Assembly: GCA_036389795.1 (NCBI GenBank)
Contig: DASVWD010000206.1
Coordinates: 1 to 54,640 of the forward strand
Direction of reading: 5' to 3'
From: Longimicrobium sp.
GTDB lineage: Bacteria > Gemmatimonadota > Gemmatimonadetes > Longimicrobiales > Longimicrobiaceae
DNA: 54,640 nucleotides
Below, piece after piece: positions 12,550 to 54,305 of this stretch. Below the pieces are notes generated by a model. The model saw nothing but the letters and a program-made list of their open reading frames with translations, had not been told where the DNA came from and searched no databases. Numbering within the stretch: position 1 is the first letter of the stretch; each line of letters starts with the position of its first letter. The translations under genes were made by a program, and so were the position numbers.

Positions 12550-13920
12550 TCACTTCGCCGGCGCGGGCCCGCGCGGCTGGTTCTGCCTGGCGAACTCCCA
12601 CAGCGCGCGGTCCAGGTCGCGCATCGACACCCCGGCGCGCGACGCCAGCTGGCGACAGGTGAGCGTGTACCTCCACCAGAGCGGGAAGCTGCAGGCCGGC
12701 GGCGTGTCGAAGCCGAGGGACCAGAGCGCCCGGAAGTCGAAGATCGGGTACCGGTCGCGGGCGCCGAAGTGGAGGAGCACGGACGCGGTCGCCCACTCCA
12801 CGCCCTCCAGCAGCCGCAGGATCCCGATCCGGAGCCGCTCGTCGCGGGCGGCGAACGCCAGCCGGGTGGTCTCCTCGACGTACGACTCGGCGTTCGTCTC
12901 GCAGCGCTTCTTCGAGCGCGGGCTCTTCCAGTGCGTGAGCACGAGGAAGTCCGGCCTGGTCACGAAGCCCGCACCCCGGATCCGCGGCGCGATCTCCGCC
13001 TCGATCCGCCGCTCGATCTCGCGCTCCCGCGGGCTGCTGCGCTCCAGGTAGCCCTCGGCGAGCCGCGGCACCTGGTCGAGGGAGAAGCCCGCCCGCGGCA
13101 CGAGCAGATCCTGGGACGACACGTCCGCGGGGATCACGCTCAGGGCGTGCTTCCGCAGCAGCTCGCGGACCTGCTCCAGCGTGGCCCCCGGGTACCGCTC
13201 CAGGAAGAGCGCCACGATCCCGGCGATGTTCGGCGCGGCGAAGCTGGTGCCGTGCTTCACCACCTGCTCGCCGCGCAGCCACACCACGGGCTGCTCCACC
13301 CCCCAGGCCTGGCACTCCATCGCCTCGTCAGGGAGGTAGCGGTACTCGTAGGGGCTCTCGAAGCGCTCGGCCGAGACGCCGATCACGTTCTCGAAGATCG
13401 CCGGGTAGCTCCAGGAGCGCGAGTTGTGGCCGGCGGCCACCACGACGATCCCCTGGCGCCGGGCGCGCTCGCACGCGGCGTACAGCGGGTGCAGCGTCCC
13501 CTCGAGCGTGGTGCCCAGGCTCAGGTTGATGACCTGCACCCCCTGCTCGATGGCCCAGAGGATGCCGGCCTGCAGCGTCCCCGGCGAGGTCTCCAGGTCG
13601 CCGCCGAACACGCGCACCGGGTGCACCCGCGCGTCGGGGGCGATGCGCAGGATCTGGTTGATGCAGGCGGTGCCGTGGCCCACGCGGTCGTGGTCGTCGT
13701 CGGTCCGCAGCATCGCCAGGTCGTCGGCGGGGTCCACCAGGCCCACGCCAGGGAGCACGCGCGGGTCGGGACAGGTGCGGTCCCACCCGCTGTCGATCAC
13801 CGCGATGCGGATCCCCTTCCCCGTCGCGCCGCCCAGCTCGTCGCGCACCCACGCCGGCGGCTCGAACGGGGCCGGGGGTGCGGGCGCCTCCGCCGGCGCC
13901 TCCACGCTCGTATCCGTCAA
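12550..13920 (-). CDS. Subtilisin-like (S8) protease fused to an HhH/GPD-like domain
   Basis: 456 residues from TTG 13920, which overlaps the TGA of the upstream hlyD-like gene (TTGA). Residues 35-265 are an S8 domain with the full triad: D43 (AVIDSGWD), H82 (VGHGTA), S226 (HGTSFAAP), and oxyanion N166 (AAGHNS). There is no signal peptide, so it should act in the cytoplasm. Residues about 300-450 form a second domain, with RIGILRLLEGVEWATASVLL then YPIFDFRALWSLG and LDRALWEFARQNQ. Its helix, G-x-W/P hairpin, and following Asp resemble the helix-hairpin-helix/GPD glycosylase core. Last gene of the peptide operon; a leader-peptidase role is inferred from context. Confidence 0.8.
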   Translation of the reverse strand: MTDTSVEAPAEAPAPPAPFEPPAWVRDELGGATGKGIRIAVIDSGWDRTCPDPRVLPGVGLVDPADDLAMLRTDDDHDRVGHGTACINQILRIAPDARVHPVRVFGGDLETSPGTLQAGILWAIEQGVQVINLSLGTTLEGTLHPLYAACERARRQGIVVVAAGHNSRSWSYPAIFENVIGVSAERFESPYEYRYLPDEAMECQAWGVEQPVVWLRGEQVVKHGTSFAAPNIAGIVALFLERYPGATLEQVRELLRKHALSVIPADVSSQDLLVPRAGFSLDQVPRLAEGYLERSSPREREIERRIEAEIAPRIRGAGFVTRPDFLVLTHWKSPRSKKRCETNAESYVEETTRLAFAARDERLRIGILRLLEGVEWATASVLLHFGARDRYPIFDFRALWSLGFDTPPACSFPLWWRYTLTCRQLASRAGVSMRDLDRALWEFARQNQPRGPAPAK

Positions 13921-15223: not shown

Positions 15224-17035
15224 TCAGTTCTGCGGGATCGCGCGCAAGGGGCGGCGGCTGTCGTCGACGACGACGCCGCCCTGCAGCTGGCGGTAGACCT
15301 CGTTGTCCTTCATCAGCTCGGCGTGGGTGCCCACGCCCACCACGCGGCCCGCCTCGATCACGCAGATCTGGTCGGCCAGCGCGGCGGTCTGCACGCGGTG
15401 GGTCACGAAGAGCACCGTCTTGTTCTCCAGCCGCGTGAACAGGTCGCGCAGGATCTCCGTCTCGGTCTGCATGTCGATGTTGGAGGTGGCCTCGTCCAGC
15501 AGGAGCACCGGCGCGTCGCGGATCAGCGCCCGGGCGATGGCCATCCGCTGGCGCTGCCCGCCCGAGAGGGTGGCGCCCCACTCGGCCACGCTGGTCTGGT
15601 ACCCCTCGGGGAGGTCGCGGACCAGCGAGTCGAGCCGGCAGAGCCGCACCGCGTCCTCCACCCGCGCCAGCGAGGGCTCGGGAGCGCCCAGCGTCAGGTT
15701 CTCCCAGATGGTGCCCTGCATCAGGCTGAACTCCTGCCACACCACCGACACCTGGCGGCGCAGGTCGGCCAGCGGCATGGCGGTGACCGGCATCCCGTCC
15801 ACGAACACCTGCCCCGAGTCGGGCTCCTCCATGCGCGTCACCAGCCTCAGCAGGCTGCTCTTCCCGGCGCCGCTCGGGCCCACCACCGCGGTGATGGCGC
15901 CCCGGGGGAAGTGCAGGTTCACGTCGTGCAGCACCCGCTTCTCGGCCGAGTAGCCGAAGCAGACGTCCCTCAGCCGGATGTCGCCCTCGATCGGGTGCGC
16001 GATCGGGGCGGGGGGCGCGTAGGAGATGGCGGGGTCCTGCTCGACGGGGCTGTCCAGGTACTCGAACATGCGCCCCAGGTTCACCGCCGTCTGCTGGAAG
16101 TCGGAGAAGAGCCCGGTGATCGACTGCAGCGGGTTGTACAGGTACCCCATGTAGGCGGTGAAGGCGATGTAGTCGCCCAGGCTCATCTCGCCGCCGATGA
16201 TGAGCGTCCACCCGTACCAGGTGAAGAGCGCCGTGCCCCCCGAGCGGATGACGGCGTTCAGGGTGCCGAACACCTGGCCGTAGCCGCCCGCCTTGAGCTG
16301 CACCTGCAGCGCGTTCTGGATCTGCCCGCTCACCCGGCTGTAGATGTGGTGCTCCATCGCCATCGCCTTGAGCGTGCGGATGTGCGAGAGCACCTCCACC
16401 TGGTAGGCGCCCAGGTCGGCGTAGGCCTCGGCGCTCTTCTTCCAGAAGCGCCTGAGCACCCGCGCCGACAGCGTGGTGAGCGCCACCGTGAGCGGGATGG
16501 TGATGAGCGCCACGATCGCCAGCTTCCACTGCAGCAGGAAGAGGAAGGGCGGCACGATGAACAGGTAGACGCCGTTGACGAAGAGGGTCTCGAAGACGCG
16601 CGAGACGCTGTTCAGCGAGTTCCTCACGTCGCCGAAGCGGCTCATGATCTCGCCCACCCGGTGCTCGTCGAAGAAGCGCACCTTCAGGTGCTGCAGGTGG
16701 TTGAAGAAGAGGAGGCTGGTGGCGTTGGCCAGGTGGCTGGTGGTGAAGGTGGTGAAATAGCCGCGGATGGCCCCCATGACGGCCTGCGCGATGGAGACCG
16801 ACAGGATCCCCAGCACCAGCACGTGCATCAGCGTGAGGTTGCGCGAGGGGTACACCTCGTCGATCAGCAGCTTGGAGAGGTAGGGGGTCACCATCCCGAA
16901 GACGCCCAGCACCAGCCCCAGGGCCATCCCCTTGAGCAGCGGCGTCCAGTACGGGCGGATCACCCGCAGCAGCCGCAGGAACTGCTGGAAGGCCTCTCTG
17001 AGCGGCGGGATGTCCGCCGGCTGAGTGGGGGGCAT
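15224..17035 (-). CDS. ABC transporter, fused permease-ATPase, no C39 peptidase domain
   Basis: 603 residues. Six membrane segments in the first 320 residues, then a nucleotide-binding domain with Walker A GPSGAGKSSLL, signature LSGGQRQRMA, Walker B PVLLLDEATS and H-loop FVTHR. It belongs to the exporter type used for bacteriocins and lipids. The N-terminus (PPLREAFQQFLRLLRVIRPYW) goes straight into the first membrane segment, so the C39 leader-peptidase domain of many peptide exporters is missing; cleavage would need another enzyme, plausibly the S8 protease of the same operon. It follows the thirteen precursor genes. Confidence 0.93.
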   Translation of the reverse strand: MPPTQPADIPPLREAFQQFLRLLRVIRPYWTPLLKGMALGLVLGVFGMVTPYLSKLLIDEVYPSRNLTLMHVLVLGILSVSIAQAVMGAIRGYFTTFTTSHLANATSLLFFNHLQHLKVRFFDEHRVGEIMSRFGDVRNSLNSVSRVFETLFVNGVYLFIVPPFLFLLQWKLAIVALITIPLTVALTTLSARVLRRFWKKSAEAYADLGAYQVEVLSHIRTLKAMAMEHHIYSRVSGQIQNALQVQLKAGGYGQVFGTLNAVIRSGGTALFTWYGWTLIIGGEMSLGDYIAFTAYMGYLYNPLQSITGLFSDFQQTAVNLGRMFEYLDSPVEQDPAISYAPPAPIAHPIEGDIRLRDVCFGYSAEKRVLHDVNLHFPRGAITAVVGPSGAGKSSLLRLVTRMEEPDSGQVFVDGMPVTAMPLADLRRQVSVVWQEFSLMQGTIWENLTLGAPEPSLARVEDAVRLCRLDSLVRDLPEGYQTSVAEWGATLSGGQRQRMAIARALIRDAPVLLLDEATSNIDMQTETEILRDLFTRLENKTVLFVTHRVQTAALADQICVIEAGRVVGVGTHAELMKDNEVYRQLQGGVVVDDSRRPLRAIPQN

Positions 17036-17222
17036 CGCTTCAGGTCTCCAGAGCCAGGCCGCCGCGGACGTGCGGCGGCGGGGACGAGGCCGGGGCGGGC
17101 ACGGTCCCGCGGACGCTTCCCGCGCGCGGGTCCCCGTTTCCGGCCAGGACGTTAAAGATAACCCGTTCTTCGCTTTCCCGCACCTGGCGGCCGTGCTCCG
17201 GACCGCGACGGCGACGATGCGC

Positions 17223-17250
17223 CGGCCCGCGCCCCGGCGGGCGCGGGCCG
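17223..17250 (-). terminator. GC hairpin between precursor 13 and the exporter gene
   Basis: An 11-bp perfect stem (17223-17233 with 17240-17250). It lies in the 265-base gap between the last precursor gene and the exporter; no other gene is visible in that gap. No T tract follows, so it may attenuate rather than stop transcription. Confidence 0.45.
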
Positions 17251-17300
17251 GGCGGTGCAGTCCCCCCTGCTCCCGTGCCGATCCGGGTCCGGACCGCGCG

Positions 17301-17483
17301 TCAGGCGCAGTCGGCCGGGCAGGCGGTGTAAACGCAGCTCCGGTAGCAGGTGCAGGCGGCGTAGAGCGTGTAGTTCGTGGGGGCCAGGTCGTGCGCGCGG
17401 ACGGTCCCCCCGGGCTCCACGCCGTCCGCGGCGGCGAACGACTCCACCGCCAGCTCGTCGAAGTCCAGCTTCAGCTTCTCCAT
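17301..17483 (-). CDS. Precursor peptide 13: VESF leader, Cys-rich core
   Basis: 60 residues. The leader MEKLKLDFDELAVESF is followed by an acidic spacer and GGTVRAH; the core (about residues 32-60) is short and aromatic, with five Cys (AACTCYRSC ... ACPADC). GTVRAH differs from the usual GTVxGH in having Ala, as precursors 10 and 11 do. It is the exporter-proximal member of the array. RBS GGAGGACCGTC precedes the ATG. Leader type resembles pinensin-family lanthipeptide precursors (family knowledge; not verified by search). Confidence 0.8.
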   Translation of the reverse strand: MEKLKLDFDELAVESFAAADGVEPGGTVRAHDLAPTNYTLYAACTCYRSCVYTACPADCA

Positions 17484-17564
17484 GACGGTCCTCCGGTGCG
17501 GGGACGGGAGGCGCCGGGAGGGGGCGTCCCCCGCCCGGCCGGCCCGAGGGTCTCGCGCGGAGAA

Positions 17565-17592
17565 CGCGGAGGGCCTCGCTTCTCCCTCCGCG
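17565..17592 (-). terminator. GC hairpin after precursor 12
   Basis: A 9-bp perfect stem (17565-17573 with 17584-17592), loop of ten, followed on the minus strand by TTCTCC. Located between precursors 12 and 13. Confidence 0.45.
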
Positions 17593-17609
17593 CTTCCGCG
17601 CCGGGGCGC

Positions 17610-17747
17610 TCAGCAGGTCTGGTAGCAGGTCATGCAGTTGCCGGTGATGCGCAGCGTATGGCTCATGTCCTCGACCACGACCTCGGCGGGCGCCGCGTCG
17701 AAGGATTCCACCCGCAGCGAGTCCAGGTCCAGCGTCAGCTTGCTCAT
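17610..17747 (-). CDS. Precursor peptide 12: short, three-Cys core
   Basis: 45 residues. The leader MSKLTLDLDSLRVESF is intact, but the GTVxGH motif is replaced by VVVEDMSHTLRITGN. The core is only the last eight residues, CMTCYQTC, with three Cys, each of the last two preceded by Thr. Of the thirteen this is the shortest and the most reduced, either a specialised member or a decaying copy. It is not in the longest-ORF lists because of its size; start fixed by the leader and the GGAGGAGACC before the ATG. Confidence 0.75.
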   Translation of the reverse strand: MSKLTLDLDSLRVESFDAAPAEVVVEDMSHTLRITGNCMTCYQTC

Positions 17748-17774
17748 GGTCTCCTCCCATCGAAGGGGGGTGAA

Positions 17775-17796
17775 GGGAGGGCGGCGGCGCCCTCCC
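17775..17796 (-). terminator. GC hairpin after precursor 11
   Basis: A 9-bp stem (17775-17783 with 17788-17796) with loop GCGG, followed on the minus strand by TTCACCCCCCTT. Confidence 0.45.
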
Positions 17797-17879
17797 CGAA
17801 CCGGGCCGCGCGACGGGCGGTCGTCCCACCCGGCCCCCCGCCACCTGTGCCGGCCCGGCGGCGAAGTGGGAGCGGCGGA

Positions 17880-18047
17880 TCAGCAGGTGACGTCGGCCGT
17901 CTCGGGACAGCACCCCGTCCGCCGGCACGAATGGCCGTGGTCGATCGTGTTCTGGTGGGCGAGCACGGTGCCCCCGGCCGCCTCCACGGCGTCGATGGCG
18001 AACGACTCCACCGCCAGCTCGTCGAGATCCAGCTTCAGCTTCTCCAT
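17880..18047 (-). CDS. Precursor peptide 11: HGHSC-type short core
   Basis: 55 residues. Leader MEKLKLDLDELAVESF, spacer AIDAVEAAGGTVLAH, then a core QNTIDHGHSCRRTGCCPET with a final VTC (four Cys, including a CC pair, and two His). It is a close paralog of precursor 10: both share TVLAHQNTI, HGHSC, RT, CCP and VTC, so the pair arose by a recent duplication. The His/Cys mix could also suit metal binding. Confidence 0.8.
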   Translation of the reverse strand: MEKLKLDLDELAVESFAIDAVEAAGGTVLAHQNTIDHGHSCRRTGCCPETADVTC

Positions 18048-18075
18048 GGCGTCCTCCGCTGCGGGGGGAAAAGGA

Positions 18076-18107
18076 GCGCCGGGCGAGGCGCGTCCCTCGC
18101 CCGGCGC
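18076..18107 (-). terminator. Strong hairpin with T tract after precursor 10
   Basis: A 12-13 bp GC-rich stem (18076-18088 with 18095-18107), followed on the minus strand by TCCTTTTCCCC. Of the array hairpins this one looks most like a Rho-independent terminator. Confidence 0.6.
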
Positions 18108-18117
18108 GGCCGCCCTC

Positions 18118-18294
18118 TCAGGCGCAGGTGCAGGTGACCTGGAAGGTGTCCGGGCAGCACGGCGTGCGCTGGCACGAGTGCCCGTGGTTGATCGTGTTCT
18201 GGTGGGCGAGCACGGTCCCCTCGCCGGCGTCCGCCCGTTCCGTGGCGAACGACTCCACCGCCAGCTCGTCGAGGTCCAGCCTCAGCTTCTCCAT
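18118..18294 (-). CDS. Precursor peptide 10: HGHSC-type short core
   Basis: 58 residues. Leader MEKLRLDLDELAVESF, spacer ATERADAGEGTVLAH, core QNTINHGHSCQRTPCCPDT then FQVTCTCA (five Cys). Close paralog of precursor 11, with a C-terminal TCA extension. The GTV motif is followed by LAH rather than xGH. Start fixed by the leader; RBS GGAGGGACCC. Confidence 0.8.
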   Translation of the reverse strand: MEKLRLDLDELAVESFATERADAGEGTVLAHQNTINHGHSCQRTPCCPDTFQVTCTCA

Positions 18295-18324
18295 GGGTCC
18301 CTCCGGTGGGAAAGTGGTGGTTCG

Positions 18325-18347
18325 CCCGCGCGGGCCCGCCGCGCGGG
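18325..18347 (-). terminator. GC hairpin after precursor 9
   Basis: A 9-bp perfect stem (18325-18333 with 18339-18347) in the 76-base spacer between precursors 9 and 10. No clear T tract. Confidence 0.4.
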
Positions 18348-18370
18348 AAGTGGGGCCGGGTCCGGCGCCG

Positions 18371-18709
18371 TCAGTACCCGTAGGCCACGTCCTCGGCGGC
18401 GCAGCCGGCGCCCGGCGAGGTGCAGTCGACCTGGCAGGTGCGCAGGCAGTTGGTGGCGCAGGTGATCTCCTGGCAGAGCGTGCACGAGTCGCACGAACCC
18501 TGGCAGCTGGCGGCGCAGGTCTGCCAGCAGGTGTCCTGGAGCTCGCACGTCCGGCAGCTCGCGTCGCAGGTCGGGCAGCGGCTGCAGTCGATCTCGTCCG
18601 CGGGCACGGCCTCGGCGTGGCCGCGCACCGTCCCCGCGCCGCCTGCCGCGGGCGCGGTGTCGAACGACTCCACCGCGAGCGCCTCCAGCTCCAGCCTCAG
18701 CTTGGGCAT
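18371..18709 (-). CDS. Precursor peptide 9: long multi-Cys core (16 Cys)
   Basis: 112 residues. Leader MPKLRLELEALAVESF, spacer DTAPAAGGAGTVRGH, then a core with 16 Cys, many in x-[ST]-C steps of three to four residues (PTCDASCRTC, DTCWQTCAASCQGSC). The tail GAGCAAEDVAYGY is Cys-poor. It belongs with precursors 1-4 in the long repetitive class. Only 22 bases separate it from precursor 8. Confidence 0.85.
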   Translation of the reverse strand: MPKLRLELEALAVESFDTAPAAGGAGTVRGHAEAVPADEIDCSRCPTCDASCRTCELQDTCWQTCAASCQGSCDSCTLCQEITCATNCLRTCQVDCTSPGAGCAAEDVAYGY

Positions 18710-18731
18710 GGCGTCCTCCGTGGCCCGGTGG

Positions 18732-18893
18732 TCAGCAGCGGCTGGTGTCGCAGAGCCGGGTGGGGCAGGCGTCGATCGCCGAGCACAGGGGCGTCCTCAG
18801 CAGCAGGCGTTCCGGCTCGGCGCCGTCCGGCTCGTCCGCGGTCTCGAACGAGGCGACCTCCAGCTGCTCGAGCGCCAGCTTCAGCTTCTTCAT
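18732..18893 (-). CDS. Precursor peptide 8: atypical leader end, four Cys
   Basis: 53 residues. The leader is MKKLKLALEQLEVASF (VASF instead of VESF), and the usual GTVxGH is absent; the spacer reads ETADEPDGAEPERLLLRTP. The core CSAIDACPTRLCDTSRC has four Cys. Loss of the conserved motif suggests either a specialised or a degenerating member. RBS GGAGGACGCG is the conserved array type. Confidence 0.75.
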   Translation of the reverse strand: MKKLKLALEQLEVASFETADEPDGAEPERLLLRTPLCSAIDACPTRLCDTSRC

Positions 18894-18912
18894 CGCGTCC
18901 TCCGGTAGAGAG

Positions 18913-18941
18913 GCGCCCCGGCCGTGCTCCGGCCGGGGCGC
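18913..18941 (-). terminator. GC hairpin after precursor 7
   Basis: An 11-bp perfect stem (18913-18923 with 18931-18941), followed on the minus strand by CTCTCTACC. Sits in the 56-base spacer between precursors 7 and 8. Confidence 0.5.
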
Positions 18942-18949
18942 GTTGCGGG

Positions 18950-19204
18950 TCAGGCGATGCAGCAGATCGGGACGCCGGTGGGGCAGACGGTCGGCGAGGC
19001 CGTGCACTCCTCGCAGGTGTCGGGCTGGCACGAGCCGTAGCCGCTGAGCGGGCAGCCGTCGCCCTCGCAGGTGAGGTCGCAGGTCTGCTGCTGCCGCGTG
19101 GGGCGGGCGTGCCCGTGCACGGTCCCGGCCTCCCGCGGCGCCGCGGCGGCGGTCTCGAAGCTCTCCACCCGCAGCGCGTCCAGCTTCAGCCTCAGCTTGC
19201 GCAT
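18950..19204 (-). CDS. Precursor peptide 7: CPTGxPxCC tail class
   Basis: 84 residues. Leader MRKLRLKLDALRVESF, spacer with AGTVHGH, then a core with nine Cys ending in VCPTGVPICCIA. The tail CPTGxPxCC is shared with precursors 5 and 6, while the middle (CDLTCEGDGCPLSGYGSC) is not. It is followed closely (22 bases upstream) by precursor 6 with no hairpin between them. Confidence 0.85.
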   Translation of the reverse strand: MRKLRLKLDALRVESFETAAAAPREAGTVHGHARPTRQQQTCDLTCEGDGCPLSGYGSCQPDTCEECTASPTVCPTGVPICCIA

Positions 19205-19228
19205 GGAATTCCTCCTCCGTGGGGGCCG

Positions 19229-19555
19229 TCAGCCGATCGCGCAGCAGACCGGGAAGCCGGTGGGGCAGACCGTGTAGTTCTTCGTGCAGTTGCTCTCGCA
19301 GGTGTGCACGCACGAGCCGTAGCAGCTGATCTCGCACGTCCCCCAGCAGCTGTCTTCGTTGGTGTCGCACCCCGGGGTGCAGCACGTCTCGCCCCCCTCG
19401 CACGTCCCCCAGCAGGTCTCCCAGTCGGTTTCGGCCACGGGCTCGCCCGCCGCCGCGTCGTAGTGGCCGCGCACGGTGCCGGCGCGCCGCGGCATGAGCG
19501 TGGTGTCGAACGACTCCACCTCCAGGGCGTTCAGGTCGAGCTTGAGCTTGGGCAT
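19229..19555 (-). CDS. Precursor peptide 6: CPTGxPxCC tail class (14 Cys)
   Basis: 108 residues. Leader MPKLKLDLNALEVESF, GTVRGH, then an acidic linker and a core with 14 Cys. The last 35 residues (ISCYGSCVHTCESNCTKN ... VCPTGFPVCCAIG) are almost the same as in precursor 5, whereas the segment before (TCWGTCEGGETCCTPGC) is unique. This points to shuffling or duplication of core segments. Spacer to precursor 5 is only 15 bases. Confidence 0.85.
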   Translation of the reverse strand: MPKLKLDLNALEVESFDTTLMPRRAGTVRGHYDAAAGEPVAETDWETCWGTCEGGETCCTPGCDTNEDSCWGTCEISCYGSCVHTCESNCTKNYTVCPTGFPVCCAIG

Positions 19556-19570
19556 GGCGTCCTCCCTCGG

Positions 19571-19870
19571 TCAGGCGTACGCGCAGCAGTTCGGGACACC
19601 GGTGGGGCAGATCGTCCAGTTGCGCGTGCAGTTGCTCTCGCAGGTGTGCACGCACGAGCCGTAGCAGCTGATCGGGCAGGTGTCGTAGCAGGTGCCGTTG
19701 CAGCTCCGGTACTCGCTGGGCGGGGTGGTGATCGCCTCCTCTTCCCCGATCTCGCCGTTCCAGGCGTCCGGGTCGCCGTGCCCGCGCACGGTCCCGGGCT
19801 CGGCGGGGAGCGACGACGTGTCGAACGACTCCACCTCCAGCGCCTCGAGGCTCAGCTTCAGCTTCCGCAT
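19571..19870 (-). CDS. Precursor peptide 5: CPTGxPxCC tail class (10 Cys)
   Basis: 99 residues. Leader MRKLKLSLEALEVESF, spacer with PGTVRGH, an acidic linker (NGEIGEEEAITTPP), then ten Cys: SCNGTCYDTCPISCYGSC, VHTCESNCTRN, ICPTGVPNCC. Nearly all Cys follow Ser or Thr. C-terminal 35 residues parallel precursor 6. RBS GGAGGACGCC just before the ATG. Confidence 0.85.
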   Translation of the reverse strand: MRKLKLSLEALEVESFDTSSLPAEPGTVRGHGDPDAWNGEIGEEEAITTPPSEYRSCNGTCYDTCPISCYGSCVHTCESNCTRNWTICPTGVPNCCAYA

Positions 19871-19931
19871 GGCGTCCTCCCGTCTCGCGTCTGCCGCCGG
19901 CCGGGCGGCGCGGCTGCTCCCGGCGTGCGGA

Positions 19932-19962
19932 GGCGGCGCGGGGAAGGCTCTCCCGCGCCGCC
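19932..19962 (-). terminator. GC hairpin after precursor 4
   Basis: An 11-bp perfect stem (19932-19942 with 19952-19962) immediately downstream of the precursor 4 stop codon. No T tract. Confidence 0.45.
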
Positions 19963-19970
19963 CGCGCGCG

Positions 19971-20345
19971 TCACTTCGGGTAGCAGTACTCGGGCTGCTC
20001 GGTGGTGCAGCCGCCGCAGGTGTAGAACAGGCAGGTGTCGCACGACCCGTAGCCGCACGTGTCGCCGCAGGTGCGCCCGCAGGTGTCGGGGCAGGTGTGG
20101 CAGCTGCCCTCGCAGCTCCCGCCGCAGCTCACCGGGTCGCCGGCGCAGGTCCAGGGGCAGCTCCGGGCGCAGGCGGAGTCCCACGAGCACCCGCCCGCGC
20201 AGGTGTCCGCCTCCACGGTGTCGGCGGCCACCGTATCGGCGGCTATGGCGTTGCCCCGCACGGTGCCGCGCCGCGCCTCTTCGGCCGCCGTGGTGTCGAA
20301 CGACTCCACGCGCAGCCCGTCGACGTCCAGCCTGAGCTTCCGCAT
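19971..20345 (-). CDS. Precursor peptide 4: long multi-Cys core (17 Cys)
   Basis: 124 residues from ATG 20345 (GGAGGCGGCG before it). Leader MRKLRLDVDGLRVESF, RRGTVRGN (Asn for His), then a short repeat AADTVAADTVEADTC and 17 Cys, with a dense stretch HTCPDTCGRTCGDTCGYGSC. The tail EQPEYCYPK ends with an isolated Cys. Longest-frame start at 20429 is rejected because it lies within heptamer repeats and precedes the leader. Confidence 0.85.
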   Translation of the reverse strand: MRKLRLDVDGLRVESFDTTAAEEARRGTVRGNAIAADTVAADTVEADTCAGGCSWDSACARSCPWTCAGDPVSCGGSCEGSCHTCPDTCGRTCGDTCGYGSCDTCLFYTCGGCTTEQPEYCYPK

Positions 20346-20377
20346 CGCCGCCTCCGGATCAGGGGTCCAGGCCGCGC

Positions 20378-20431
20378 GTCCGCGGCCGCCTCGCACTTCG
20401 CACCCCGCACTTCGCACCTCGCACTTCACCG
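20378..20431. repeat. GCACTTC/GCACCTC heptamer array
   Basis: About five tandem seven-base units (GCACTTC, GCACCCC, GCACTTC, GCACCTC, GCACTTC) between precursors 3 and 4. Other heptamer arrays occur at 15130, 49206, 49577, 52206 and 54297. Confidence 0.75.
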
Positions 20432-20463
20432 ACCGGGGACCGCGCCCGGGGGGCGGCGGCGGG

Positions 20464-20862
20464 TCAGAGACAGGCGTAGTACGGGCCGGTGTTGCAGTAC
20501 TTGAGGCAGGTGTCGCACGTGTAGTCGCAGGTGTACTCGCCGCAGGTGCCGTAGCAGCTGGCGTCGCCGCAGGTGTACTGGCCCGCGCACGAGTTGCAGG
20601 TGCCGTTGCAGCTCGCCTGGCAGGTGTTCTCGCCGCACGTGCCGTTCATGCAGCTGGCGTCGCAGCTGCCGAAGCAGCTGTCGAAGTCGGTGCATCCGCC
20701 GCAGTCGCTCTCGAAGCAGGAGCCGTAGTCGGTGCCGCAGTACCGGTAGTACGTCTCGGGGGCCATGTTGCCCTGCACGGTGCCGCGCGCGCGCTTCTCG
20801 CCGCCCGTGGTGTCGAACGATTCCACCTGCAGCGCGTCGAGGTCGAGCCGGATCTTGCTCAT
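20464..20862 (-). CDS. Precursor peptide 3: long multi-Cys core (20 Cys)
   Basis: 132 residues, the longest of the array. Leader MSKIRLDLDALQVESF, ARGTVQGN, then METYYRYC-like aromatic start and 20 Cys. Stretches such as NTCQASCNGTCNSC and YTCDYTCDTC show a Cys every three to four residues, each usually preceded by Ser or Thr. Ends in an aromatic, GPYYACL. Confidence 0.85.
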   Translation of the reverse strand: MSKIRLDLDALQVESFDTTGGEKRARGTVQGNMAPETYYRYCGTDYGSCFESDCGGCTDFDSCFGSCDASCMNGTCGENTCQASCNGTCNSCAGQYTCGDASCYGTCGEYTCDYTCDTCLKYCNTGPYYACL

Positions 20863-20933
20863 GGGTGTCTCCGTCGGGTCGGGTGGGTTGCGGGGGCGCG
20901 GTCCCCGGTCGTGACTGGCCGATGCGTCGTCGA

Positions 20934-20968
20934 GCCGTCCCCGGCGCCGCGTGCGCGCCGGGGACGGC
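20934..20968 (-). terminator. Perfect 13-bp hairpin after precursor 2
   Basis: Stem 20934-20946 with 20956-20968 (GCCGTCCCCGGCG and its complement), loop of nine. No T tract, so mRNA protection or pausing is as likely as termination. Confidence 0.5.
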
Positions 20969-21008
20969 CTCCTTCGGCGTGCGTGGCAATCCCCGGAGGT
21001 CGGGTGCT

Positions 21009-21356
21009 TCACATGCAGTACATCCGGGTGCAGGGGTAGAAGGTGCAGTCCCAGGCACACTCGGTGAAATCGCAGCTCTCCCAGCAGGTGTCGACGCACG
21101 ACGCCTGGCCGTCGCAGGTGTTGCAGGTGGCCGGACACGTGTTCCGGCAGGTGGCCGGACAGGTGTTGGCGCAGGTGTCCGGGCACGTGTTGAAGCACGT
21201 GTCGCAGGTCCCCTCGCACGAGGCGCAGGTGTCTTCCGTGCAGTTGCACCCGAGCGTGCCGGTGATGTAGCCGCGGACCGTGCCGCGCTCCGGCTCGCCC
21301 GCCACCGTCTCGAACGACTCCACCTGGAGCTCCTCGAGGTTCAGCTTCATCTTCAT
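21009..21356 (-). CDS. Precursor peptide 2: Cys-ladder core (20 Cys)
   Basis: 115 residues from ATG 21356 (GGAGGTGCTC before it). Leader MKMKLNLEELQVESF, ERGTVRGY, then 20 Cys. Between about residues 50 and 80 the pattern xxTC repeats with a strict four-residue step (FNTCPDTCANTCPATC, RNTCPATCNTC). Its sister is precursor 1. Such a ladder could form a disulfide- or thioether-stitched solenoid or bind metal; the sequence does not decide. Confidence 0.87.
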   Translation of the reverse strand: MKMKLNLEELQVESFETVAGEPERGTVRGYITGTLGCNCTEDTCASCEGTCDTCFNTCPDTCANTCPATCRNTCPATCNTCDGQASCVDTCWESCDFTECAWDCTFYPCTRMYCM

Positions 21357-21478
21357 GAGCACCTCCATGCAGATGTGCCGATCCGGGCTCGTCGCCCGCC
21401 GCAGCCTCTTCCTGCCGATCCCCGGCGGACCGGGCCCGTCCACGCGCGCCGGGGACCGCTCCCTTCGGCGTGGGATGG

Positions 21479-21504
21479 CGCGCCCGGGCCGGGTGCCGGG
21501 CGCG
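21479..21504 (-). terminator. GC hairpin after precursor 1
   Basis: A 9-bp perfect stem (21479-21487 with 21496-21504), loop of eight, starting 17 bases beyond the precursor 1 stop. Confidence 0.45.
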
Positions 21505-21520
21505 CGGATGGGTCAGCGGC

Positions 21521-21889
21521 TCAGTACGGCTGCGGGTAGTACGGGCCGCACAGCTTGATCGGGTACGAGCAGTCGTACCCGCAGTCGGTGTAGTAGCAGC
21601 TCCCGCCGCAGGTGTCGTCGCAGGTGTACTGGCCCGCGCACGTCTGGCAGGTGGCCGGACAGGTGTTCTGGCAGGTGGCCGGACAGGTGGCGGCGCAGGT
21701 GTAGACGCACGAGTCCACGCACGAGTCGCAGCTCTGCTCGCACGTGTCGCAGGTGTACTCGCCGTTGTAGGTGCAGTCGTAGCAGCGCGTGCCGGTGATG
21801 TGGCCGTGGACGGTGCCGCGCTCCTGCTCGCCGGAAACGGTCTCGAACGACTCGACCTGGAGCTCGTCCAGGTTCAGCTTCATCTTCAT
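21521..21889 (-). CDS. Precursor peptide 1: Cys-ladder core (19 Cys), first of the array
   Basis: 122 residues from ATG 21889. Leader MKMKLNLDELQVESF, ERGTVHGH, then ITGTRC and 19 Cys, with the four-residue ladder YTCAATCPATCQNTCPATC. The Gly/Tyr-rich tail is KLCGPYYPQPY. It shares leader and ladder with precursor 2, and QYTCDDTC-like segments with precursor 3. Being first in transcription order, it lies nearest the presumed promoter region at 21.9-22.4 kb. Confidence 0.87.
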   Translation of the reverse strand: MKMKLNLDELQVESFETVSGEQERGTVHGHITGTRCYDCTYNGEYTCDTCEQSCDSCVDSCVYTCAATCPATCQNTCPATCQTCAGQYTCDDTCGGSCYYTDCGYDCSYPIKLCGPYYPQPY

Positions 21890-40189: not shown

Positions 40190-41299
40190 TCAGCTCAGCA
40201 GCCGGAGCGGCATCACCAGGCAGAGGTAGTCGGGGGTGTCCTCGTTGCCCAGCGGCATCATGGTGGCGGCGCGCTCGGGCGCCTTGAAGCTCATCCGCAC
40301 CTCGTCGGTGGGCATGTAGCGCAAGAGCTCCAGCAGGTACTGCGCGTTGAAGCCGATCTCCAGCGGGTCGCCCTCGTACTCCACCGGCAGCTCCTCGTTG
40401 GCCGCGCCCAGGTCCGGGCTCTCCACGCTGAACTTCACCATCGGCCCGCCCAGCGACATGCGGATGCGGTGCGTCTGGTCGCTGGCCACGATCGCCATGC
40501 GGCGCACCGCCGCGGTGAGCTGCCCCTTCTCGGCAACCAGGTTCTTGTCGTTGTCCTTGGGGATGACCTGCTCGTAGTTCGGGTACGGGCCCTCGATGAG
40601 GCGCGTGTACACCTGCACGTCGGGACTCCTGAAGCCCAGGTGGTTCTCCGAGCGCGCCACCTCCACCGGCGTGTCGCCCGTGAACAGGCGCTGCACCTGT
40701 GCCAGCGCCTTGGGGTGCACGATCAGGTCGGCCGAGGGCACCTGCGCCGAGGCCTCCACCGGCAGCGTCATCTTGGCCAGGCGGTGGCCGTTGGTGGCCA
40801 CCATGCGCATCTCGCCCTCGCGCAGCTGCCAGAGCACCCCGTTCAGGATCGGCCGCGTCTCCTCGGTGCTGGCCGCGAAGGAGACGTGCGTGATGAGCCG
40901 CACCAGGTCGGCCCCGGTGAGCCGCCAGCTCTCCGCGAACTCCACCCTGGGGAAGGCGGGGAACTCGTCGCGCGGCAGCCCGTTCAGCTTGAAGCGGCTC
41001 CGCCCGCTGTTCAGGAAGATGGAGTCGCCCTGCGTGGAGACCTCCACCACCCCGGGGAGCTCGCGCGCGATCTCCTGCAGCTTCTTCGCCGGCGCGGTGA
41101 TGGAGCCCGCCTCGGCCACCTCGGCCGGGACGCGCACCGTGACGGCCGTGTCCAGGTCGGTGCCGCTCATCCGCACCGCGCCCTCCTCGGCCTCGATCAG
41201 GATGTTCGAGAGCACGGGGAGCGTGGTGCGGGTCGGGATGCTCCCGGCGACCGCGCCGAGCCCCTGCTGGAGGTTCTCACGCGTGATGGTGAATCTCAT
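40190..41299 (-). CDS. dnaN: DNA polymerase III beta subunit (sliding clamp)
   Basis: 369 residues, standard clamp length. It forms a ring dimer around DNA that tethers DNA polymerase III. Three similar domains are visible; N-terminal MRFTITRENLQQGLGAVAGSI is typical, as are LPVLSNILIEA, EFPAFP and the C-terminal VMPLRL(L)S. It lies downstream of dnaA with a gap of about 590 bases that carries oriC-like sequence. Both read on the minus strand. Confidence 0.97.
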   Translation of the reverse strand: MRFTITRENLQQGLGAVAGSIPTRTTLPVLSNILIEAEEGAVRMSGTDLDTAVTVRVPAEVAEAGSITAPAKKLQEIARELPGVVEVSTQGDSIFLNSGRSRFKLNGLPRDEFPAFPRVEFAESWRLTGADLVRLITHVSFAASTEETRPILNGVLWQLREGEMRMVATNGHRLAKMTLPVEASAQVPSADLIVHPKALAQVQRLFTGDTPVEVARSENHLGFRSPDVQVYTRLIEGPYPNYEQVIPKDNDKNLVAEKGQLTAAVRRMAIVASDQTHRIRMSLGGPMVKFSVESPDLGAANEELPVEYEGDPLEIGFNAQYLLELLRYMPTDEVRMSFKAPERAATMMPLGNEDTPDYLCLVMPLRLLS

Positions 41300-46240: not shown

Positions 46241-47974
46241 ATGGAGAAGCGACTCCTCCTGGCCTTCGCCCTGACGGCGATCCTGCTGGTGGTGTGGAAC
46301 TACCTGGCGCCGCCCGCCCCCCAGCCGCCCGCGCGGCCCCGCGCCGACAGCGTGGCCGCCGCCCCCGCGGCGGCGCCGTCAGCCGCGCCCGCCGCCGCGG
46401 TCCCGGCCGCTCCGCGGGCGCCCGCGCGCACCGTCACCGTCCGCTCGCCGCTCTACGAGTACGACTTCTCCACGCGCGGCGCCGCGCTGGTGGCCGCCGA
46501 GCTGCTGAAGTACCGCTCGTACGTGCAGCCGCGGAGCAACGTGCAGCTCATCCCGAAGGGCGCTACCGACGTGCTCGGCCAGCGCGTGGTGGCCGCCGGC
46601 CGCACCCTGGACCTGCGCGCGGCCGACTTCCAGCCCAGCGCCCCCCGCATCGACCTGCGCGAGGGCGACCGGCCACAGGAGCTGCGCTTCACCTACGCGC
46701 CCGGCGGCACCCCGGTGGCCGAGATCGTCTACACCTTCCGGCCCGACGACTACCTGGTGGACGTCCGCGGCCGCTTCTTCGGGCTCGGCGGCGCGGGGAC
46801 GCTGTACACCGAGCTGGGCCCCGGCCTGGCGCCGCACGACGCGCGCGAGCACGCCCAGGAGCGCGAGCTCTCGCTGGTGGCGTGGAACCGCGAGCGCGTC
46901 GAGCGGCTCCCGCTGCGCCGGGTGCAGGCGGCCGACACCATCCCCGGGCCGCTCGCCTGGGCGGGGGTGCGGGACCGCTACTTCTTCCTGGCGCTCATCA
47001 ACCCCACCGGCCGCCAGTTCACGCGGCTGATGGCCCGGAACGTCCCCGACGAGCCCTACACGGTGCGGGGCGAGCGCCTGGTCTCGCCGCGGGCGCTCGG
47101 CACCACCGTGCTCCCGCTGGGGCCCGACGGCACCTTCGCCTTCCAGGCGTACCTGGGGCCGCTGGAGCACGGGCGCCTGGCCGCCGCCGGCCACGAGCTG
47201 GAGGAGGTGAACCCGTACGGCTACCGCTGGCTGCGCCCGGTGATCCGGCCGATCGCCGCGGGGGTGCTGTGGGTGCTGCGCGAGCTGCACGACTCGCTGG
47301 GGCTGGCGTACGGGTGGGTGCTGATCCTCTTCGGCGTGATGGTGCGCCTGGTCACCTGGCCGCTGAACGCCAAGGCCGGCCGCGCGCAGATGCGCAACAT
47401 GGCCGTGCAGCCGCAGCTGCAGGCGCGCATGAAGGAGATCCAGACGCGCTACGCCGAAGACCCGCGGAAGCAGCAGCAGGAGATGATGAAGATGTACCAG
47501 GAGCTGGGGGTGAGCCCCTTCTCCATGATGTCGGGGTGCCTGCCGCTCTTGATCCCCATGCCGGTGCTGATCACGCTCTTCTTCGTCTTCCAGGGCGCCG
47601 TGGAGTTCCGCGGGGCGCGCTTCGCCTGGCTGCCGGACCTGTCGCTGCAGGACCCGCTGTTCCTGCTGCCGGCCTTCCTGGTGGCCTCCATGTTCGCGCT
47701 GCAGTGGATCACCAGCAAGATGAGCGGGATCGAGCAGAACGCGCAGACGAAGACGATGATGTACACGATGCCCCTGATGATGGGCTTCTTCTTCTGGTTC
47801 ATGCCGTCGGGGCTCAACCTGTACTACGCCACCACCAACCTGGCCTCCATCCCCCAGCAGGTGCTGCTGGCCCGCGAGCGCCGCGCGGCCATGGAAGCGC
47901 AGAAGGCGAAGGAGTCCGCCCAAGCCAGGCGCCCCGCCGGCCGCCCCGCGAGCCGCGAAAAGCCCCGCCGCTGA
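46241..47974 (+). CDS. yidC: Membrane protein insertase YidC
   Basis: 577 residues. N-terminal membrane segment (LLLAFALTAILLVVWNYLAPP), an Ala/Pro-rich linker, a large periplasmic domain (about 70-340), then the conserved insertase core of five membrane segments: YGWVLILFGVMVRLVTWPL, MMKMYQELGVSPFSMMSGCLPLLIPMPVLITLFF, and the distal SGLNLYYATTNLASIPQQ. The long form with a periplasmic domain indicates a Gram-negative type cell envelope. It inserts inner-membrane proteins with or without SecYEG. Confidence 0.97.
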   Translation: MEKRLLLAFALTAILLVVWNYLAPPAPQPPARPRADSVAAAPAAAPSAAPAAAVPAAPRAPARTVTVRSPLYEYDFSTRGAALVAAELLKYRSYVQPRSNVQLIPKGATDVLGQRVVAAGRTLDLRAADFQPSAPRIDLREGDRPQELRFTYAPGGTPVAEIVYTFRPDDYLVDVRGRFFGLGGAGTLYTELGPGLAPHDAREHAQERELSLVAWNRERVERLPLRRVQAADTIPGPLAWAGVRDRYFFLALINPTGRQFTRLMARNVPDEPYTVRGERLVSPRALGTTVLPLGPDGTFAFQAYLGPLEHGRLAAAGHELEEVNPYGYRWLRPVIRPIAAGVLWVLRELHDSLGLAYGWVLILFGVMVRLVTWPLNAKAGRAQMRNMAVQPQLQARMKEIQTRYAEDPRKQQQEMMKMYQELGVSPFSMMSGCLPLLIPMPVLITLFFVFQGAVEFRGARFAWLPDLSLQDPLFLLPAFLVASMFALQWITSKMSGIEQNAQTKTMMYTMPLMMGFFFWFMPSGLNLYYATTNLASIPQQVLLARERRAAMEAQKAKESAQARRPAGRPASREKPRR

Positions 47975-52244: not shown

Positions 52245-52269
52245 GCGCGCTCTTTCGATCCCGTCCAGA

Positions 52270-52285
52270 TGTTCCACGTGGAACA
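52270..52285. promoter_or_regulatory. parS centromere site 1
   Basis: TGTTCCACGTGGAACA, a perfect 16-base palindrome with three differences at most from the consensus bound by ParB near origins (TGTTNCACGTGAAACA type). Located upstream of mnmG; a second copy is at 54425. Confidence 0.9.
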
Positions 52286-52397
52286 CTCCTCCACAGGCGA
52301 GGTAATGAGAGCCCGTTTTCCTGACGCTATTATCCATGTACCTGAATCCGCGCGGATCAGCGGCGGATCATCCCTGGGCGAGTGGCCGGAAGCACGC

Positions 52398-54305
52398 ATG
52401 GACAACCGGTTCGACGTGATCGTGGTGGGCGGCGGGCACGCCGGGGTGGAGGCAGCCGCGGCGTCGGCGCGCATCGGGGCGCGCACGCTGCTGGTCACCG
52501 CCAGCCTGGAGGCCATCGGCCAGATGAGCTGCAACCCCGCCATCGGGGGGGTGGCGAAGGGTACCGTGGTGCGCGAGGTGGACGCGCTGGGCGGCGTGAT
52601 GGCGCTGGCCACCGACCGCGCGCGGATCCAGTTCCGCATGCTGAACCGCTCCAAGGGCCCCGCCGTCTGGGCCCCGCGCGCCCAGTGCGACCGCGGCCTG
52701 TACCCCCGCGCCGCCCGCGCGCTGCTGGAGCGGCACCGGGACCTTGAGTTCTTCCAGGGGATGGTCGGCTCGCTCGTGCTGGAGGGTTCGCGCGTGGCCG
52801 GGGTGCGCACGGAGAGCGGCTTCGAGTTCCGCGCCCGCGCCGTGGTGCTCACCGCGGGCACCTTCCTGCGCGGCAAGATCCACGTCGGCAGGTCTCCGGG
52901 CGTGCCGGCCGGCCGCGCGGGCGACCCGCCGTCGGTGCGCCTGGCCGAGCAGATGGAGGCGCTGGGGCTGGAGGTGGCGCGCTTCAAGACCGGCACCCCG
53001 CCCCGCATCGACGGCCGCTCGGTCGACTTCTCGAAGACGGAGGTGCAGCCCGGCGAGAGTCCCGAGTACCGCCTCTCCGCCTGGGAGCGGGCCCCGCTCC
53101 TCCCGCAGCGGCCGTGCTGGATCACCTGGACGGGCGAGCCGCTGCGCGAGATCGTCCGGCATCACCTCGGAGATTCCGCGCTGTACGGCGGCGAGATCTC
53201 CGGGCGGGGGCCGCGCTACTGCCCCTCGATCGAGGACAAGATCGTCAAGTTCCCCGACGCGCCGCGCCACCAGGTGTTCCTGGAGCCGGAGGGGCTGGAG
53301 ACCACGGAGCTGTACGTGAACGGCCTCTCCACCTCGCTCCCGGCGGAGGTGCAGCTCCGCATGCTGCGGAGCATCCCGGGGCTGGAGCGGGCGCGGATGA
53401 CCAGGGTGGGGTACGCCATCGAGTACGACTACTACCCGCCCCACCAGCTCCGCTCCACGCTGGAGCTGAAGGCGCTGGACGGGCTCTTCCTGGCCGGCCA
53501 GGTGAACGGGACCACGGGGTACGAGGAGGCCGCCGGGCAGGGGATCGTGGCCGGCGCGAACGCCGCCTTCGCGGCGCTGGAGCGCGAGCCGCTGGTGTTG
53601 GAGCGCGACCGGGCGTTCGTCGGCGTGCTGGTGGACGACCTGGTGACGCGGGGGACGGACGAGCCGTACCGCCTCTTCACCTCGCGCGCCGAGTTCCGGC
53701 TGGTGCTGCGTCAGGACAACGCCCTGCAGCGGCTGGGCCCGCTGGCCGCGGCGCGCGGGCTGCTCACCCCCGCGCAGCGCGAGGCGCTGCAGCGGCGGCT
53801 GGAGCTGGCGGAGCGGCTGGAGGGGTGGCTGCGCGGCACCAACGCCGCCCCCGCGCAGGTGGGCGCGCTGCTGGAGCGGGCCGGCTCGCAGCCGATCCGC
53901 GAGCCCGTGCGCCTGGCCCAGCTCCTCAAGCGCCCGGGCGTCACCGCGGCGGCGCTGCTGGAAGCCGTGGGAGGCGGGCCGCTCGCCGGGGACGGAAGCG
54001 AGGAGGAGCGCGCGGCCGCCACGGAGGCGCTGGTGACGGTGGAGATGGAGCTCAAGTACGACGGCTACCTGGCGCGCGAGCGCGAGCGCGCCGAGGCGCT
54101 GCAGCGGCAGGCCGACTTCGCGCTTCCGGCGGACCTTCCCTACCCCGAGCTGGCCTCGCTCTCTTTCGAGGCGCGGCAGAAGCTGGAGCGGGTGCGCCCC
54201 GCCACCCTGGCCCAGGCTGGCCGCATCCCCGGCGTGAGCCCGAGCGACCTGCAGAACTTGGTGATGGAGGTGCGGAAGCGGAGGGCGATAACTGCCAGTG
54301 CGTGA
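52398..54305 (+). CDS. mnmG: tRNA uridine 5-carboxymethylaminomethyl modification enzyme MnmG
   Basis: 635 residues from ATG 52398. FAD-dependent partner of MnmE. N-terminal FAD motif [21 protein letters not shown], family signatures [74 protein letters not shown]. An upstream in-frame ATG at 52269 begins inside parS and is rejected. The final codons (TASA) are made of the heptamer repeat that follows. Confidence 0.97.

Follow-up and report, generated by a model that had tools for sequence, protein, structure and literature searches.

How the products of thirteen small, cysteine-rich genes standing in a row are processed, and whether these genes stand alone, are the questions raised by a 54,640-nucleotide stretch of DNA from Longimicrobium sp. 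(Gemmatimonadota; contig DASVWD010000206.1). This whole stretch is called the window below; it is contig C206 of a genome of 7.5 Mb in 285 contigs, here G000 (genomes, contigs and loci carry our labels G, C and L). Based on gene content and gene order, the array very probably encodes 13 members of a set of about 144 precursors of class I lanthipeptides that would be modified in trans by one split LanB and one LanC. The class I features are seen in the genes: the two LanB parts (LanB-N and LanB-C), a LanC with zinc motifs, and a leader followed by a core rich in Ser, Thr and Cys.

The array, its leader and the genome-wide precursor set

The array lies at 17301-21889 on the minus strand and consists of 13 consecutive open reading frames (ORFs) of 45-132 residues with 3-20 Cys each, all starting with ATG and preceded by a Shine-Dalgarno-like motif. 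The original prediction, made from the letters of the window, had described these genes as having a common leader start and diverging cores and as preceding an ATP-binding cassette (ABC) exporter, an HlyD adaptor and an S8 protease, and every detail that was checked was found right: all the ORFs are present, the Cys counts are as claimed, and the three further genes lie downstream on the same strand. Seven leader residues (M1, K2, L5, L10, V12, S14 and F15, numbered as in the first sequence) are invariant in 13/13, and the motif GTVx(G/A)(H/N/Y) is present in eleven of the thirteen, as had been stated. The precursors are listed below; NF038180 is the NCBIfam model 'pinensin family lanthipeptide', with a curated cut-off of 24 bits.

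21521..21889, minus strand: precursor 1, 122 residues, 19 Cys; TCPATCQNTC repeats in the core; NF038180 32.6 bits
21009..21356, minus strand: precursor 2, 115 residues, 20 Cys; NF038180 33.0 bits; core DNA 70% identical to that of precursor 1
20464..20862, minus strand: precursor 3, 132 residues, 20 Cys
19971..20345, minus strand: precursor 4, 124 residues, 17 Cys
19571..19870, minus strand: precursor 5, 99 residues, 10 Cys; TIGR04114 (Cxxx repeat) 20.3 bits, cut-off 20
19229..19555, minus strand: precursor 6, 108 residues, 14 Cys
18950..19204, minus strand: precursor 7, 84 residues, 9 Cys; NF038180 24.4 bits
18732..18893, minus strand: precursor 8, 53 residues, 4 Cys; core CSAIDACPTRLCDTSRC; leader without GTV
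18371..18709, minus strand: precursor 9, 112 residues, 16 Cys
18118..18294, minus strand: precursor 10, 58 residues, 5 Cys; core HSCQRTPCCPDTF
17880..18047, minus strand: precursor 11, 55 residues, 4 Cys; paralogue of precursor 10
17610..17747, minus strand: precursor 12, 45 residues, 3 Cys; leader without GTV
17301..17483, minus strand: precursor 13, 60 residues, 5 Cys

That these are precursors of ribosomally synthesized and post-translationally modified peptides (RiPPs) with a pinensin-type leader, as originally proposed, is supported by NF038180: three of the 13 peptides score above its cut-off, seven score below it and three are unmatched. Among 21 near genomes, five hold a match above the cut-off. 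A leader model built here scores the 13 peptides at 39-63 bits; seven genomes from this family in which no LanB was detected gave no match to it at E<=1e-5, and chance origin of the shared leader is therefore excluded. A Pfam scan of ten of the window's peptides gave no match at E up to 1, so that no Nif11-type leader is present in these.

For the census of G000, two leader-profile searches, each scoring no more than 150 candidates (146 and 143 matches), were made and the regions were then rescored in six frames. About 144 precursor ORFs with the leader were found, in 78 groups on 65 contigs, all 144 with an ATG start and 139 of them with a ribosome-binding site. Precursors that stand alone number 55, and the window's array of 13 is the largest, followed by arrays of 12, 9 and 7. 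The remark on the unusually large number in one operon, thirteen, is correct and understated; about 131 further precursors and the modifying enzymes, all outside the window, had been missed.

Core statistics were drawn from 142 complete-looking precursors, with two odd ones (on C84 and C90) excluded. The cores hold 2-24 Cys (median 6) and consist of 16.5% Cys and 12.9% Thr, with 0.1% Cys in the leaders. Mean identity is 47% among leaders and 19% among cores, compared with 17% among shuffled cores; at 50% identity the cores fall into 121 families, and no two are identical. In some close precursor pairs, the differences fall mainly in the core: between C197:10606 and C197:11390, 97% of the leader DNA and all 60 nucleotides upstream are shared, against 62% of the core DNA (background about 45%). 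Elsewhere in the genome, the precursors at C13:18359 and C14:27178 comprise one core with 24 Cys including CCCC and one of three near-identical GGGATQCGGVQTCGGGCQ repeats.

A few cores are related across genomes. The precursor 8 core, CSAIDACPTRLC, is 83% identical to that of the sole precursor of the enzyme cluster in G009, and the precursor 10 core, HSCxRTxCCPDTF, is related to cores in the clusters of G008 and G002. CSAIDACPTRLCxTSxC and close variants are kept across species (window 18732-18893, L058:13811, L059:10197 and L060:11398), whereas nearly all other cores are not.

Perfect GC-rich stem-loops lie in gaps separating the precursor genes and ahead of the ABC gene (window 20934-20968, 18076-18107, 18913-18941, 21478-21505 and 17222-17251) and may tune or end transcription within the array; a promoter scan found none. 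The presence of dnaN (40190-41299), yidC (46241-47974) and mnmG/gidA (52269-54305) in the window suggests that the array is near the replication origin.

Modifying enzymes, export genes and gene order in relatives

The LanB glutamylation domain (LanB-N, PF04738) has a single above-cut-off match in G000, on contig C225, and the elimination domain (LanB-C, PF14028) occurs once, as a separate ORF beside it; the assembly is fragmentary, and a second LanB may be missed. LanC (PF05147) adjoins LanB-C, carries both zinc-ligand motifs (WCHG and CHG) and is closest to LanM cyclases. A split LanB is the arrangement of pinensins and thiopeptides, and pinensin-type LanCs resemble LanM cyclases (Walker 2020, PMC7268733); the split LanB and the LanM-like LanC of a pinensin-type pathway are both found in G000. 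These enzymes, which identify the chemistry, had gone unnoticed and could not be found from the window alone. Most of the precursors are far from any LanB or LanC.

Single clusters in five relatives contain, in this order, LanB-N, LanB-C, LanC, the precursor or precursors, the ABC exporter, HlyD and S8, with ten precursors in G008:C103, six in G002:C23, one in G009:C6, two in Gemmatimonadetes RYN_364 and one in Ignavibacteriales CG18. G180, which belongs to another family and genus of the class, carries these genes in a slightly altered order, with one precursor. Because the clusters of relatives join these genes with LanB and LanC, the window is read as that half of a class I lanthipeptide cluster which supplies the precursors, the export genes and the protease. 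The single precursor in the Ignavibacteriales genome suggests a one-precursor ancestral cluster. When 395 genomes of the phylum of that locus were searched for the pinensin leader, two matched; one of these has three lone precursors, with no LanB near them.

Conserved leaders with variable cores had been expected in related genomes, and in several relatives such genes do number from 43 to at least 150. At E<=1e-5 the leader matches number 144 in G000, at least 150 in each of G002 and G008, 74 in G009, 58 in G252, 43 in G233, 15 in G007, 11 in G001, and one or two in G006, G178 and G180; in a sample of 298 genomes of the phylum, the expansion is limited to one family, probably Longimicrobiaceae. 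Agreement in coordinates and counts indicates that G233 and G007 are probably the metagenome-assembled genomes Gemmatimonadetes RYN_364 and 0707_bin15. Of the 27 genomes searched for leader and LanB alike, all 11 with LanB-N or LanB-C above cut-off have the leader, and so do 0/16 of those without (G003-G005, G010-G020 as far as tested, G065 and G118). LanC-like genes are present in the LanB-less, leader-less genomes G003, G004, G005 and G014, and the leader therefore follows LanB, not LanC or LanM. At L061 11242 and L062 8825 (G006:C30 and G008:C98), leader-like precursors with Cys at every third residue (SGC and SNC repeats) adjoin a second, more distant type of LanB/S8/ABC cluster.

The C225 LanC has about 700 residues, the last 240 of which match no accepted Pfam family and give only weak PqqD matches (E 0.014). 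This extension is conserved from Gemmatimonadota to Ignavibacteriales (L057 14298-15038 and orthologues). AlphaFold models it with confidence (predicted local distance difference test score 83, predicted template modelling score 0.78), and most of the model is similar to the TglHI complex (Z 12.9, Foldseek E about 1e-5) and to NGO1945 (Z 11.3). The last 110 residues match leader-bound TbiB1 and lasso B1 at Z 6.5-6.8, PqqD at 6.4, NisB at 6.3 and TbtB at 5.9; Z values for so small a domain lie in the range of possible chance, and unrelated winged helices score alike, but many of the matches listed for this domain are RiPP leader readers. The extension is thus predicted to fold like TglI/NGO1945 and to end in a winged helix resembling a RiPP recognition element (RRE). 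Such an element on the cyclase could account for the recruitment of dispersed precursors.

The genes downstream of the array are as follows.

15224..17035, minus strand: ABC exporter with membrane and ATPase domains, 75-83% identical to the exporters beside LanB/LanC in G008, G002 and G009
13917..~15200, minus strand: HlyD-type periplasmic adaptor, start codon not fixed
12550..13920, minus strand: S8 (subtilisin-like) protease with intact Asp/His/Ser, a candidate leader peptidase

A domain scan found no C39 peptidase domain in the exporter, and C39-type export was rejected for this reason. The TTG start of the S8 gene overlaps the stop codon of HlyD, which suggests translational coupling of the two. 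The closest NCBIfam model to the protease is NF049966 (QhpE), at 136.8 bits under a cut-off of 165. A contig scan with an S8 alignment recovered the synteny in other metagenome-assembled genomes and, past about ten loci, only generic subtilases. The C-terminal part of the protease, about 146 residues (window 12550-12990), is an in-frame extension without a Pfam match, before which other S8 orthologues stop; its relatives are separate ORFs in G011:C581, G007:C268, G001:C400 and G002:C44, and the extension is either a gene fusion or an effect of sequencing or assembly. At L043, L044 and L045, homologues of S8 with 55-60% identity, in LanB-less genomes or, for L044, away from LanB, adjoin an ORF of 166-181 residues without a Pfam match, perhaps another peptide-processing pair.

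From the directly established precursor family, enzyme genes, gene order, co-occurrence, catalytic motifs and predicted fold, we infer the following chemistry, recruitment, cleavage and function. The C225 LanB-N would glutamylate Ser and Thr of the cores and LanB-C would eliminate the glutamate, after which LanC would couple Cys thiols to the dehydro-residues, giving lanthionine or methyllanthionine rings. The shared leader would recruit all precursors in trans, probably through the terminal RRE-like winged helix of LanC and perhaps also through LanB's own. The ABC/HlyD pair beside the array would export the products and the S8 protease would remove the leader. The products would be many different polycyclic peptides, secreted as a library; our guess at their most likely use is antagonism towards competitors.

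Core composition and the alternative explanations

Several observations weigh against a pathway of this kind. LanB and LanC are absent from the window's contig, and G000 also has two class II LanMs on C28 and a lone LanC on C285. The link between enzymes and substrates rests on synteny in relatives and on co-occurrence, which is uncorrected for shared ancestry. The S8 protease has relatives in genomes without LanB, and the protease type is therefore not specific to the pathway. In addition, Ser plus Thr equal or exceed Cys in 129/142 cores, and in the other 13 Cys exceed Ser plus Thr; some Cys of these cores therefore cannot be in lanthionines.

These 13 cores, the very high Cys content, and the dedicated exporter and protease fit an explanation in which the peptides are unmodified, secreted and disulfide-rich or metal-binding, and the pinensin-like leader serves for export only. 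On the other hand, 73/142 cores have an even number of Cys, which is no preference and is unlike disulfide-paired families, and disulfide-only peptides were rejected on this ground. Furthermore, Ser and Thr are as enriched as Cys, half of which (559/1109 in the cores) come immediately after one of the two, and LanB co-occurs with the leader without exception. We consider this explanation improbable, although it survives best among the alternatives.

Even less probable is that the peptides are thioether RiPPs of the ranthipeptide or sactipeptide type, made by a radical S-adenosylmethionine (SAM) enzyme. The modal spacing between core Cys is four, and CxxxC spacing might point to this type; precursor 5 scores just above the TIGR04114 cut-off, and ranthipeptide clusters have been reported in another order of Gemmatimonadota (PMC11651109). 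However, a regular expression for CxxxCx(aromatic)C, which is not a profile search, found no match in ORFs of at least 250 residues lying up to about 2.5 kb from the precursors (69 regions) or in the window, and radical SAM chemistry was rejected on this negative search near all precursors. Moreover, the leader tracks LanB across genomes, and LanB and LanC flank leader-bearing precursors in relatives.

That the two LanMs of C28 modify the precursors as a prochlorosin-type class II library is scarcely credible and was rejected, the LanMs not being linked to the precursors: neither leader-profile search found a leader on C28, the exporter is of the kind without C39, the relatives' clusters have a split LanB, and four LanB-less genomes have LanC-like genes but no leader.

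Comparison with known systems

Neither the leader family nor the split LanB is new, and libraries made by one enzyme are a known concept as well. The open-access literature yielded no description of a comparably large class I library or of a LanC with an RRE-like extension, which is weak evidence of novelty. The genome of Longimicrobium terrae is reported to have three lanthipeptide regions, and its RiPPs to be without known relatives (PMC7291104).

We lean, if only narrowly, towards a further proposal: a single LanB/LanC set with an RRE-fused LanC serves over 140 scattered precursors in trans as an independently evolved class I counterpart of the prochlorosins, and TCxxTC ladders with up to 24 Cys would give new ring topologies. 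Library-scale one-enzyme lanthipeptide systems have hitherto been class II and from marine picocyanobacteria; if the proposal is true, Gemmatimonadota hold a class I system just as large, and the strategy arose at least twice. The tRNA-dependent enzyme set should then tolerate about 121 core families, and the system would provide a natural test of whether fusing an RRE to the cyclase is what enables a single enzyme to accept numerous dispersed substrates. A further consequence is that mining only near LanC (seven genes on each side in Walker 2020, PMC7268733) misses most precursors in such genomes.

The pinensins, the class I family of Bacteroidota to which NF038180 belongs, are similar in the LxLxxLxVESF leader, the split LanB and the LanM-cyclase-like LanC (PMC7268733). 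G000 differs from them in its approximately 144 precursors on 65 contigs, cores with up to 24 Cys, presumably trans-acting enzymes, the S8 protease and perhaps the RRE-like extension of LanC. The class I cluster maximum in Walker 2020 is ten precursors, in Tumebacillus (PMC7268733), where several different class I precursors also stand together, compared with 13 here and about 144 in the genome. TglHI/TglI and PqqD-type RREs share the fold of the LanC extension, which here is fused to a lanthionine cyclase. QhpE, whose model is the closest to the S8 protease though below the family cut-off, is a leader-cutting subtilisin in the maturation of quinohemoprotein amine dehydrogenase.

Prochlorosins and synechococsins belong to class II, and the 29 to 143 precursors per strain are served by one or two ProcM-like enzymes: ProcM serves 29, SyncM 79, and one Synechococcus strain has 143 with two ProcM-like enzymes (PMC10783134). 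As far as can be told for G000 from its genes, the prochlorosin systems are similar in the shared leader, the hypervariable cores, the scattered precursors and the one or few promiscuous enzymes. In contrast to them, G000 belongs to another phylum and has a class I split LanB and LanC instead of LanM, a pinensin-type instead of a Nif11 leader, and an ABC exporter without C39 accompanied by a separate S8 protease.

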